Shown one piece after another: positions 14,077-46,395 of a stretch of DNA of 64,000 nt; position 1 is the stretch's first letter; each line of letters opens with the position of its first letter. Made by a program: the position numbers and the translations under genes. The notes under the pieces are model-generated. The model had not been told where the DNA came from, ran no database searches, and saw only the letters and a list, made by a program, of their open reading frames with translations. Source of the DNA: Oceanibaculum nanhaiense (lineage in GTDB: Bacteria > Pseudomonadota > Alphaproteobacteria > Oceanibaculales > Oceanibaculaceae); NCBI RefSeq assembly GCF_002148795.1, contig NZ_MPOB01000006.1:1-64000 (forward strand). Direction: 5' to 3'.

Positions 14077-14198
14077 CCCATGCCTCGTCTGGTTTTTTCG
14101 GAAAGCCGCACAGCCGGGACCGGCCCGCAGCGTTAAGCAGATAGTACGCCTCCGCCCGATGCCCGCAATGGGTGTTGCATGATGCCGCCCGATTCTTT

Positions 14199-14220
14199 TA
14201 TGTTACGTTATAACGTTATT
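14199..14220 (+). promoter_or_regulatory. Zur-like palindrome before the His-rich TonB receptor
   Basis: The perfect 12-bp palindrome ACGTTATAACGT (14205-14216) lies in an AT-rich stretch 22 bp before the receptor start and resembles Zur/Fur-family operators, which are AT-rich dyads often containing GTTATAA. The receptor's His-rich loop fits zinc control. Binding is inferred, not shown. Confidence 0.55.
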
Positions 14221-14238
14221 AATCAGGGGCAATTTCCG

Positions 14239-16287
14239 ATGAATATCCAAAGCCTGCGCACAGGCGTCAGCCTGCTGGCGCTGATGGCCGTGCCGTTTTC
14301 CGCATCTTCCCTTGCCGCCCAGCAGGCAGACCCCGTCACCCTACAGCCGGTGGTGGTGGAGATCGCGCCCCTGAAGAGCACGCAGGAGGAGCTGGTCGAA
14401 GGCTCCGCCGTCCTGACCGGCGACGATCTGGAGCGCCGCCGCGCGCCGACGCTGGGCGAGACGCTGGCGCGCACGCCGGGCGTCGCCAATTCCGATTTCG
14501 GCCCCGGCGCCGGGCGGCCGGTGATCCGCGGCCAAGGCGCGGCGCGGGTGCGCGTGCTGCAGAACGGGCTGGACACGTTCGACGCCTCCACCGCCAGCCC
14601 GGACCATGCCGTCGTCATCCCGATGGAATCGGCGGAGCGGGTGGAAGTGCTGCGCGGCCCGGCCTCGCTGCTTTATGGCAGTTCGGCGGTGGGCGGAGTG
14701 GTCAGCGTCACCGACGGGCGTATCCCGATGCGGCGGCCGAGGGATCTGGTCGAGGGCATGGCGCGCCTTGGCTTTTCCACCGGGTCGAGCGCACTGGAGG
14801 GTTTCGGCTCGGCCAGCCTGGCGGCGGGCAATAATGTCGTGCTGCATCTGGAAGGCTTCAGCAGCGACGCCAATGATTACCGGGTGAACGGCTATGCCAG
14901 CGACGAGGCGCGCGAGGAAGGGCTGAAGGGCAAGGTCGAGAACAGCGCGGTCGAGCGGTCGGGCGGTTCCGTCGGCGCCAGCTATCTGGGTGAGCACGGC
15001 TATGCCGGCTTCGCTGTCAGCGGCTATTCCAGCCTGTATGGCGTTCCGGGCGGCCACGCACATCATGAGGAAGAGGACCACGAAGAAGAGGACGAGGATC
15101 ACGAGCACGAGCATGGCGGCGTGCGCATCGACATGCAGCAGACCCGCTATGACGCGCGCTTCGGCCTTTACGAACCGCTGCCCTTCCTGGAGGAGGCCAC
15201 GCTGCGGCTCGGCCATGCCGATTACCGCCATCTGGAGCTGGAGGGCGACGAAGTCGGCACTCTGTTCGAAAATCGCGGCTGGGAAGGCCGGCTCGACCTC
15301 ACGCACAAGCCGATCTTCGGGCTGAAGGGCGTGTTCGGCGTGCAGGCCAGCCGGCGCGATTTCCAGGCGGTCGGCGAGGAAGCCTTCGTGCCGCCAACGG
15401 TCACCGACAACGCCGCCCTGTTCCTGGTCGAGCGCTACGAGACCGGCCCCTGGCAGTTCACCGGCGGCGGCCGGCTGGAGACCCAGACGGTCGAGGCCGA
15501 CGGGCTGCGCATGGAGCGCGATTTCACCGCCGTCAGCGTCTCCGCTGGCGCCAGCTACAAGCTGTCGCCCGACTATTCCGTCGGCCTGTCGCTGTCACGC
15601 ACAGAGCGCGCGCCGAATGCGGAGGAACTGTTCTCCGACGGGCCGCATCTGGCCACCAATTCCTACGAGATCGGTAATACCGAACTCGGCAAGGAAGAGG
15701 CGCTGCACGCCGAACTGTCGCTGCGCAAGACACGCGGCCCGGTGACCGGCGGTATCAATCTGTTCGCCACGCGCTACCGCGACTACATCTTCCGCGACTT
15801 CACCGGCGGCGAGCGCGACGGGCTGGACGAATTGCGCTACCGCCAGACCGACGCCGACTTCCACGGCTTCGAGGTGGAGGCCGCCTGGGCCTTCCTGGAA
15901 CGGCCGGGCCTTGCGCTCAGCCTGGATGGATCGCTCGACTATGTGCGGGCGGAAAACCGGGAGACCGGCGACGCGCTGCCGCTGATCCCGCCGCTGGGCT
16001 ACAATATCGGCATCAACGCCTATACCAACCATGTCGATTACCGGCTGGAACTGGCGGGCGCCACCGAGCAGGACCGCACCGGCGCCAACGAGACATCGAC
16101 GGACGGCTATGCCTTCCTGAACGCCTCACTGGCCTTCCGGCCGATTGCCGGCAGCGACGATTTCATCCTGCAGGTGCAGGGGCGCAACCTCACCGATTCG
16201 GAGGGGCGCAATCACATCTCCCTGCTGAAGGACGAAGCCCCCTTGCGTGGCCGTGAATTGCGGGTGGTCGGAACCGTCAGGTTCTGA
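14239..16287 (+). CDS. TonB-dependent receptor with His-rich loop, probable zinc importer
   Basis: A 682-residue outer-membrane receptor: signal peptide (residues 1-27, ending SSLAAQ), plug domain (about 45-165, with RVEVLRGPASLLYGSSAVGG) and a 22-strand barrel ending RGRELRVVGTVRF. Residues 273-292 are a His/Glu/Asp-rich stretch (HAHHEEEDHEEEDEDHEHEH), like the metal-binding loop of ZnuD-type zinc receptors. I chose the ATG at 14239 because of the CAGGGG ribosome site and the signal peptide; the longer frame would run through the palindrome. A Zur-like site lies just upstream. Zinc is the likely cargo, though nickel or copper cannot be excluded. Confidence 0.87.
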   Translation: MNIQSLRTGVSLLALMAVPFSASSLAAQQADPVTLQPVVVEIAPLKSTQEELVEGSAVLTGDDLERRRAPTLGETLARTPGVANSDFGPGAGRPVIRGQGAARVRVLQNGLDTFDASTASPDHAVVIPMESAERVEVLRGPASLLYGSSAVGGVVSVTDGRIPMRRPRDLVEGMARLGFSTGSSALEGFGSASLAAGNNVVLHLEGFSSDANDYRVNGYASDEAREEGLKGKVENSAVERSGGSVGASYLGEHGYAGFAVSGYSSLYGVPGGHAHHEEEDHEEEDEDHEHEHGGVRIDMQQTRYDARFGLYEPLPFLEEATLRLGHADYRHLELEGDEVGTLFENRGWEGRLDLTHKPIFGLKGVFGVQASRRDFQAVGEEAFVPPTVTDNAALFLVERYETGPWQFTGGGRLETQTVEADGLRMERDFTAVSVSAGASYKLSPDYSVGLSLSRTERAPNAEELFSDGPHLATNSYEIGNTELGKEEALHAELSLRKTRGPVTGGINLFATRYRDYIFRDFTGGERDGLDELRYRQTDADFHGFEVEAAWAFLERPGLALSLDGSLDYVRAENRETGDALPLIPPLGYNIGINAYTNHVDYRLELAGATEQDRTGANETSTDGYAFLNASLAFRPIAGSDDFILQVQGRNLTDSEGRNHISLLKDEAPLRGRELRVVGTVRF

Positions 16288-16984
16288 TCGGTCCAGCGTC
16301 AGCCTTGCCGCCACGCGGTGCCCCCCTTGGCGGCAAGGCCCAGGCCACTAGGCCGGCAAGCATCGCCGCCAGCGGCACCAGCGCCTGCCCCTCCCCCATC
16401 GCGTGCAGGGTGGCCGCACTCACAAGACACCAGAAGACCGGCACGGCTAGGGCGAGGCCGGACAGCAGAGTGCGCGGAAGCAGGCAGAGCAGGCCAAGCG
16501 TGGCGATGGCGGTGGGGTCCGGCGCCAGCCCAATCATCTCCGCCTGCGCCAGCGGCCGTCCAAAGACGAGCGGCAGCAGCGGATGGAGCGTCAGCGCATA
16601 GACGAACAGCCCGGCACCCGCCCCTTCCCGCAAGCGCCATCGAGCGGCGGCAGGCACGATCGCGCCGCGCCCCACCAGCAGCAGCAGGATCGCTTCCGCC
16701 AGAAACACCGGCATCAGATAGGGTGCCGCCCAGTTGATGCTGGCATAGCGCTGCCAGAAGAACAGCAGCCCCACCGCAACCCAGCCCGCCGCCAGCAGGG
16801 CGAGGCCAAGCCTGCCGGCCCTGGGCGCGCCGCGCAGCACCAGCGCCGCAACACCCAGCCCCAGCAGCAGGATGAAGGGCTGCGCCGGCCACAGCGCCGC
16901 ATTGTGCAGCTCGAACAGCCGCCAATAGGCGCGCGGCGCGAACAGCAGGAAATCCTCCAGCCGGTAACTCGACCAGTCGGCCAT
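16277..16984 (-). CDS. Multi-pass membrane protein, DUF6064-like
   Basis: A 235-residue protein with about seven hydrophobic segments. The opening YRLEDFLLFAPRAYWRLFEL followed by NAALWPAQ resembles the DUF6064 family of uncharacterised membrane proteins. Its ATG overlaps the stop of the aldo/keto reductase gene by ATGA coupling, so the two form an operon. Its last 11 nt overlap tail-to-tail with the TonB receptor gene. No function is known. Confidence 0.75.
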   Translation of the reverse strand: MADWSSYRLEDFLLFAPRAYWRLFELHNAALWPAQPFILLLGLGVAALVLRGAPRAGRLGLALLAAGWVAVGLLFFWQRYASINWAAPYLMPVFLAEAILLLLVGRGAIVPAAARWRLREGAGAGLFVYALTLHPLLPLVFGRPLAQAEMIGLAPDPTAIATLGLLCLLPRTLLSGLALAVPVFWCLVSAATLHAMGEGQALVPLAAMLAGLVAWALPPRGAPRGGKADAGPIRT

Positions 16985-17904
16985 CAGATATCCCGGATAT
17001 GGGCGGCGATGCGCTCCCGCATTTTAGCATCTGGCAAAGGATCGGACGCCGCCCGCATATTCTCGCGCGCATGGTGCGGCTTGGTGGTCGCCGGGATAGC
17101 CACGGTGACAGTGGGGTGCGACAGGATAAATTTCAGGATCAGCTGCGCCCAGGTCTCCGCCCCCACCTCCGCCGCCCAGCCCGGCAGGGGCGCGCGTTCC
17201 AGCCGCCGGGTCAGCGCGCCCTGCCGGAACGGCCGGTTCACCATGACGCCGATGCCACGCTCCTTCGCCAGCGGCAGGATGCGTTGTTCCACTTCGCGGT
17301 CGAGCGGATTGTATGTCACCTGCACGAAATCGAGCTTCTGCGTGGCCATCACCCGCTCGAACAGATCATGCCGGCGGCCTTCCGAGGTGGTGATGCCGAC
17401 ATAGCGGATCTCCTTCGCCGCCTTCATCGCCTGCAGCGTCTCCAGATGCGCCTCCCAGCCCAGCAGATTATGCACCTGCATCAGGCTGAAGCGCGGCACG
17501 GTCCAGAGCCGCCGCGACCGGTTCATCTGCGCCCGCCCCTGATCGCCGTCGGATATCCACACCTTGTCGGCGGAGAACAGATTTTTCGGGCGGCCCAGCT
17601 TTTCCAGGCCGTGGCCGATCACCGCCTGAGCGGAGCCATACATCGGCGAGGAATCGATGACCCGCCCGCCAGCCTTGAAGAAGGACTCCATCACCGCCGC
17701 GCACTCGTCGCGCAGCACCGGGTCTTCCCCGACATTGAAGGTGATCCAGGTACCGAGGCCGACGGCGGGAATCATCTCCCCGGTCGAGGGGATCGGCCGC
17801 ATCAACGGTTGCGCCTGCTGCCCCCAACTCAGGCGGGGCAGTCCAGCCGCCATCACGCCTGCCGCGGCGGCACCCTTCAGGATGCTGCGTCTGGAGGATG
17901 TCAT
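16984..17904 (-). CDS. Tat-exported aldo/keto reductase
   Basis: A 306-residue aldo/keto reductase with an N-terminal twin-arginine signal (SRRSILKG followed by a hydrophobic AAAAGVMAAG stretch). Catalytic residues appear in order: Asp and Tyr in VIDSSPMYGSA, Lys in FSADKVWI, His in MQVHNLLG. The start at 17904 has AAAGGAG five bases upstream; a frame extending to 17922 has no such site. Periplasmic location is inferred from the Tat signal. This is unusual because NADPH is scarce there, so an unusual cofactor or cytoplasmic retention is possible. Operon with the downstream membrane protein. Confidence 0.87.
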   Translation of the reverse strand: MTSSRRSILKGAAAAGVMAAGLPRLSWGQQAQPLMRPIPSTGEMIPAVGLGTWITFNVGEDPVLRDECAAVMESFFKAGGRVIDSSPMYGSAQAVIGHGLEKLGRPKNLFSADKVWISDGDQGRAQMNRSRRLWTVPRFSLMQVHNLLGWEAHLETLQAMKAAKEIRYVGITTSEGRRHDLFERVMATQKLDFVQVTYNPLDREVEQRILPLAKERGIGVMVNRPFRQGALTRRLERAPLPGWAAEVGAETWAQLILKFILSHPTVTVAIPATTKPHHARENMRAASDPLPDAKMRERIAAHIRDI

Positions 17905-18013
17905 GAGTGCTCCTTTCCTCATTGCATTTCCTCTCTATTCCCTAGATGGGGCAAGGAGACGGCAGGCAAAGGGCACATACGACGCGCAGAAACACGCCGC
18001 CTCCGATTCGCGG

Positions 18014-18042
18014 TTGATAGAGTGTGAAAAATTCCATACTGT
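18014..18042 (+). promoter_or_regulatory. Candidate sigma-70 promoter of a small RNA
   Basis: TTGATA (18014-18019), a 17-bp spacer and TACTGT (18037-18042). The -35 matches consensus in five of six positions, while the -10 is weak. It lies upstream of a structured, gene-free segment that ends in a strong terminator. Confidence 0.45.
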
Positions 18043-18048
18043 GCGTTT

Positions 18049-18179
18049 GTCATTAAGTAATGCAGTTTTTCGACACAAAACGCATATCCGATTTGCGTCG
18101 ATGCATTGCTTGGTGTCGTTTTGCTAACCAATTCCAACTCTGCTCGACCGCGATGTACCCATCCGGTCGAGTTTTTTTT
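18049..18179 (+). ncRNA. Candidate small regulatory RNA, about 130 nt
   Basis: Between two minus-strand genes, the plus strand holds a promoter-like sequence, then a long hairpin (CGACAC 18071-18076 with GTGTCG 18113-18118, enclosing ACGCA/TGCGT at 18080-18084 and 18094-18098), a single-stranded AACCAATTCCAACT segment, and a canonical terminator. No plus-strand coding gene precedes that terminator. This layout is typical of a trans-acting sRNA. I do not recognise the family. Confidence 0.55.
18143..18179 (+). terminator. Rho-independent terminator
   Basis: An eight-pair stem CTCGACCG/CGGTCGAG with a 13-nt loop is followed directly by eight T residues. It is oriented on the plus strand, where no protein gene precedes it, and serves the candidate sRNA. 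Confidence 0.85.
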
Positions 18180-18203
18180 ATCCGAGTTTCAAAAAGTAGG
18201 GGC

Positions 18204-19097
18204 TTAGGGTCCGTTATAATGCACGCGCCCGAAACCGCTGACATCGTAACCGCCAAGCTGCGCCGCCCGGTCCGCGAAGTCCGGCGTACGGCAGAAGCTT
18301 AAGAAGGCCTGCACCGGCGCCGAAAACCAGCTGCGCCGCCAGACCGCGAGGTCGAAGCGTTCGCGCACCAGCGGCACGAAGCCCAGCCGGTACTGTGCCG
18401 CCACGGACGCAAGCCCGAGCCCGGCATCCGCCTGCCCTTCCAGCACGGCCAGCGCCACATCCTGTTCGCTGCGCGCCGGCCTCAGCCGCTCATAGGCGTC
18501 GGGCGCCAGCCCCGCCGCCGCCGCCAGCCGGTCGAACAGCAGCTGTGTGCCGGCCTCCGGCTGGCGCGGCACGGTACGGCAGCCTGCCAGGTCGGCGATG
18601 CCAGCGATCTTGCGGGGATTGCCAGCGGGCACGATCAGCCCGCGCTCGCGCCACGCCCATTCCATCAGCACCACCGGCATGGCCGGCATCCGCGCCTCGA
18701 TCAGATGGCGATTCCAGCCCTCCGCTTCCGGCGCTGGCACATGCATGCCACACAGCACGCCCTCGCGCCGGGCAAAGCGGTCGAACCCGTCCAGACTGCC
18801 ATCGAAGAAGGACGCCATACCGGAGCCCGATTCGCGCAAGGCCCAGTCCAGCAGCGGGTCATGGCTGCCCAGCGCCACCACCGGCGGGTCCGGCAGCGCC
18901 AGCCCGTCCTCGCCCAGCTCCGTCCGCCGGGACAGCCAGGAGATCACCAGCGCCTTCGGGAACAGCAGCTTGCCGGTCACCCGCGTGAAAGGCACCTCGT
19001 TGGCGGCCGCCATCTCGTAGATCTTGCGCTCCTTCACGCGCAGGATATCGGCCAGCTCCTTGGTGGTCAGGAATTCGAGCGGTTCGACGATCTTCAT
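18204..19097 (-). CDS. HTH regulator with PBP-like (molybdate-type) sensor domain
   Basis: A 297-residue protein. Residues about 8-60 are an excisionase/MerR-like helix-turn-helix (LTTKELADILRVKERKIYEM). Residues about 75-290 form a periplasmic-binding-protein-like domain of the kind used as a cytoplasmic ligand sensor in ModE-related and molybdopterin-linked regulators (family-level knowledge). I chose the ATG at 19097, with AAGGA four bases upstream, over one at 19118. There are no molybdate transport or molybdoenzyme genes nearby, so the regulon is not evident. Confidence 0.82.
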   Translation of the reverse strand: MKIVEPLEFLTTKELADILRVKERKIYEMAAANEVPFTRVTGKLLFPKALVISWLSRRTELGEDGLALPDPPVVALGSHDPLLDWALRESGSGMASFFDGSLDGFDRFARREGVLCGMHVPAPEAEGWNRHLIEARMPAMPVVLMEWAWRERGLIVPAGNPRKIAGIADLAGCRTVPRQPEAGTQLLFDRLAAAAGLAPDAYERLRPARSEQDVALAVLEGQADAGLGLASVAAQYRLGFVPLVRERFDLAVWRRSWFSAPVQAFLSFCRTPDFADRAAQLGGYDVSGFGRVHYNGP

Positions 19098-19208
19098 GCA
19101 GTCCTTCAGTTCAGACACCGGGTAGCCGCAACAGCCTTAGCCACCGACAGGCGTCGATGATCTTACCTGACCGCCAGATCGGCAAGCCAAACCGGTTCGC
19201 GCTGGACA

Positions 19209-46363: not shown

Positions 46364-46395
46364 TTGCCGCTTTCCCCACGCCGCAGGACAATGAG

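Follow-up and report, generated by a model that had tools for sequence, protein, structure and literature searches.

Does the gap at positions 17923–18203 of this stretch of Oceanibaculum nanhaiense DNA (hereafter the window, the whole 64,000 nucleotides analysed) hold the gene for a small RNA (sRNA)? The gap measures 281 bp and is flanked only by minus-strand genes, as a preliminary description of the locus had it; that description read a plus-strand promoter, a nested hairpin, an unpaired segment and a strong terminator in the gap, took an sRNA as the simplest explanation, and named a covariance search of Rfam and alignment with related genomes, including a look for compensatory changes, as checks. 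Its statement that the terminator has no protein gene to serve holds to the extent that there is no plus-strand gene close downstream; a plus-strand TonB-dependent receptor gene lies 1.7 kb upstream. The features on which our argument draws are as follows.

16984–17922, minus strand: aldo/keto reductase gene (PF00248, E 8.6e-32; start possibly 17904), divergent to the proposed sRNA
18014–18042, plus strand: candidate promoter, with a −35 TTGATA at 18014–18019; a weak match
18047–18179, plus strand: proposed sRNA transcript of about 130 nt (fold z −7.0, sister-species identity), with a predicted 5′ end
18051–18115, plus strand: long two-part hairpin, comprising a basal helix of 14 pairs, a five-base bulge on the 5′ side and an apical helix
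18116–18141, about 28 nt, plus strand: single strand (UCGUUUUGCUAACCAAUUCCAACUCU), the likely pairing (seed) region, unpaired in the folds of both species
18142–18179, plus strand: intrinsic terminator with an eight-T tract, seen in the sequence and, with seven T, in the sister species
18204–19118, minus strand: regulator gene, HTH_17 plus PBP_like (PF12728 and PF12727), whose 3′ end faces the sRNA terminator

The nested hairpin and the unpaired segment were both found where they had been described, in the sequence and in its predicted fold, and so was the terminator, described as having eight pairs and eight T: its stem is made of nine outer pairs (CTCGACCG/CGGTCGAG and a single G-U pair) with a further helix of four pairs inside them, and the eight T at 18172–18179 directly abut it. 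Folding of 18049–18179 gave a minimum free energy of −48.8 kcal/mol and a z of −7.0, with none of 200 shuffles equally good. When the window was tiled from end to end as a control (976 stretches of 131 nt, both strands, 12 shuffles each), the lowest z reached was −4.8; tiles that split the element fall short of its full z. Hairpins of at least seven pairs followed by at least six T occur only twice in the 64 kb window, the second being on the plus strand at 46393, about 30 bases past the end of the ATP synthase operon, where a terminator is expected. The proposed sRNA ends 24 bp before the stop codon of the regulator gene. Because no plus-strand gene follows, the next genes being on the minus strand, an attenuator or riboswitch is unlikely.

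A terminator in this position could instead end a long transcript reading through from the TonB-dependent receptor gene (14179–16287, plus strand), in which case the hairpin would be merely part of a 3′ end, and the RNA would run antisense to both the DUF6064 gene and the aldo/keto reductase gene. Consistent with such read-through, there is no other plus-strand terminator with six or more U between 16287 and 18142, and the receptor gene and a minus-strand gene overlap tail to tail. However, a GC-rich hairpin at 16302–16339, which lacks a T-tract, could end the receptor transcript with the help of Rho, and above-neutral conservation begins only at about 18047; we therefore consider read-through improbable. 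The hairpin in question (CCTTGCCGCCA...TGGCGGCAAGG) comes right after the receptor stop codon and lies inside the convergent DUF6064 gene, at its 3′ end. Separately, a loop of the receptor rich in His, Glu and Asp (HHEEEDHEEEDEDHEHEHG) suggests that its substrate may be zinc.

The case for an sRNA is weakest at the promoter, which was confirmed only in part. As a −35 hexamer, TTGATA at 18014 matches the consensus at 5 of 6 positions and is kept in the sister species. The −10 is only partial, whether read as TACTGT at 18037–18042 (spacing 17, 3/6) or as CATACT at 18035–18040 (spacing 15, 4/6), and a consensus promoter scan did not place the candidate at 18014 among its listed promoters. The corresponding −10 of the sister species reads CATAAT/TAATGT. 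Elsewhere in the gap, a 20-base block at 17940–17959, before the aldo/keto reductase gene, is identical in the sister species and is perhaps a promoter or operator.

The sister species is represented by a second genome of the same genus (G003; the genome studied here is G000). Gene order is shared over at least 6 kb, and the element is found at the same place. The proposed transcript is identical at 119 of 131 positions (91%), compared with 89 of 117 (76%) over the remainder of the gap (Fisher p 0.0013) and with 76% at third codon positions of the two neighbouring genes (p 5e-5), which show 75% identity at fourfold sites. Conservation above the neutral level starts at about 18047, not before, and is confined to the proposed transcript; within it, 18110–18139 is identical apart from a 1-nt insertion in the sister species. 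Pairing is preserved as well, with 36 of the 38 shared pairs forming in each species (94.7% of cells; sliding the partners lowers this to 29–37%), and the terminator stem differs by one pair, G-U to A-U, its T-tract kept as seven T. The alignment with the sister species bears out the preliminary description as far as conservation goes, the element being kept above neutral with its pairing and T-tract, but not as regards compensatory changes: between these two sequences no pair of the shared structure is altered on both sides. One compensatory pair reported by RNAalifold (columns 40–54) belongs to an alternative register and was rejected, so no covariation is claimed; with two sequences, covariation neither supports nor refutes the structure.

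Conservation of this kind might also reflect a small protein, as an in-frame TTG frame of 26 codons (LSLSNAVFRHKTHIRFASMHCLVSFC) has the same frame and stop position in both species. It lacks a Shine-Dalgarno sequence, though, relies on a TTG start and lies buried in the hairpin. Because five of its eight changed codons are non-synonymous and a longer ATG frame is shifted by the 1-nt insertion in the sister species, a protein product is very improbable.

Both strands fold well: the minus strand comes close to the plus strand here (z −6.1) and surpasses it in the sister species (z −4.4). These minus-strand folds, together with the minus-strand orientation of both flanking genes, would suit a cis-acting element: the complement could form the untranslated leader of the aldo/keto reductase mRNA or, if the two genes make up an operon, the spacer between them, serving as a processing or regulator-binding site, or the plus-strand RNA could act on that transcript as a cis-antisense RNA. 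Against this, only on the plus strand does the stem lead into a T-tract, which is conserved; the basal helix, moreover, uses three U-G pairs on the plus strand (one of them replaced by C-G in the sister species), and all three turn into A-C mismatches on the minus strand. A cis-acting element is in our estimation a distinctly unlikely explanation, and the T-tract and U-G pairs favour the plus strand. We infer the strand, and transcription itself, from the terminator, the strand resting on the T-tract.

The stand-alone sRNA gene that we favour would be transcribed on the plus strand, starting near 18047 and ending at 18179, divergently from the aldo/keto reductase gene. Above-neutral conservation in synteny, the retained pairing and T-tract, the single copy in its genome and the lack of a downstream plus-strand gene all agree with the original proposal of an sRNA as the simplest explanation, and we think it likely that the 18047–18179 region gives rise to a discrete sRNA of the plus strand.

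The taxonomic range of the element is narrow. It is present in two of the four genus genomes examined, G000 and G003, and absent from the other two placed in the same genus (G001 and G002), where the homologs of the neighbouring genes are only 41–44% identical. Searches with a model of the element gave credible matches only in G000 and G003 in overlapping samples of 96 genomes of relatives, 385 of the class and 398 of the phylum (screened with stricter filters that can lose weak matches), and again only there among 80 loci around related regulators. A match in the phylum sample (G413, E 0.005) was rejected: chance alone should give one of this E among 400 genomes, and the alignment is only partial. 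Also rejected was a weak match in a distant alphaproteobacterium, G043, which shares only the terminator stem and loop GATGNACCCATC; the hairpin concerned lies between argF and an Hsp33 gene, and the stem and loop that it has in common with the terminator in the window read TCGACC-GATGCACCCATC-GGTCGA. Public genome contigs held no match to an exact 20-base pattern, nor did viral contigs to a pattern of 25 bases with gaps; both searches covered lineages other than near relatives. The multiple copies expected of a repeat or mobile element (REP, MITE) were not seen: the element occurs once in its own genome and gave no match in plasmids or phages. The simplest reading is an sRNA restricted to the genus.

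The covariance search of Rfam 15, run both at the gathering score and with E values of up to 5, returned no family match, described alphaproteobacterial sRNAs and 6S RNA included, and gave the candidate no known identity. 6S RNA (RF00013) resembles it in having a long hairpin with an internal bulge, but the element has an intrinsic terminator. That it is the 6S RNA of this genome was ruled out, since it does not match RF00013 and the genome has its own 6S candidate at G000:C5:224365. This candidate (224365–224524) is a full-length match to 6S RNA at 37.4 bits, below the Rfam cut-off of 46.4, and is perhaps the divergent 6S of the lineage. Other parallels are found among trans-encoded sRNAs. 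In SmelC671 the 5′ hairpin and the 3′ terminator hairpin are likewise separated by a long single strand that carries a conserved motif, and rhizobial families such as this one have a similarly narrow taxonomic range, 32 of 39 being confined to the Rhizobiaceae (PMC3927594). The exposed strand here nevertheless contains neither the CUCCCUGU nor the CCUCCUCCC motif. In Qrr-type Hfq-dependent sRNAs the conserved single strand between the first and later hairpins is the mRNA-pairing site (Qrr1, PMC3927594), although we see no sequence relation with the element. Of 18 intergenic candidates in Sinorhizobium meliloti that had been picked chiefly on the strength of a terminator and conservation, with curation by hand, Northern blot or microarray detected 14 (PMC2573895).

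Because the layout of hairpin, conserved single strand and terminator matches SmelC671 and Qrr1, we read the element as a trans-acting sRNA with the exposed strand as its likely seed, leaning slightly towards action in trans by pairing. In this model the RNA would owe its stability to the 5′ hairpin and would pair with at least one mRNA through its conserved single strand (UUUUGCUAACCAAUUCCAACUC; UUUUGCUAACCAAUUCC); the terminator hairpin, together with the U tail, would both end the RNA and serve as the expected Hfq-binding site. Hfq is encoded in the same genome (G000:C9:21976), and the sRNA is probably Hfq-assisted. A search of both genomes for complements of the exposed strand yielded few more matches than a control pattern and no convincing target; the sites common to both species were rejected because they fall within genes, occupy the wrong strand (the one before a Fur-family gene) or lie between genes with no start nearby. 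An intergenic stretch at G000:C4:146495, conserved in G003, can pair with the sRNA strand at 13 of 14 positions; it has no gene start nearby and is possibly another non-coding RNA.

In conclusion, the element very probably encodes an sRNA of an ordinary kind and would be an undescribed member of the bacterial intergenic trans-encoded sRNAs; as a candidate it is well supported, lacks an Rfam family and offers a precise seed that is open to testing. Found in two of four genomes of its genus and nowhere else searched, the gene appears to have arisen recently. We give an even chance to the broader reading, in which an sRNA family was born within one deep-branching alphaproteobacterial genus, with a new exposed seed that would regulate mRNAs in trans, perhaps in response to the same signal as the aldo/keto reductase gene.
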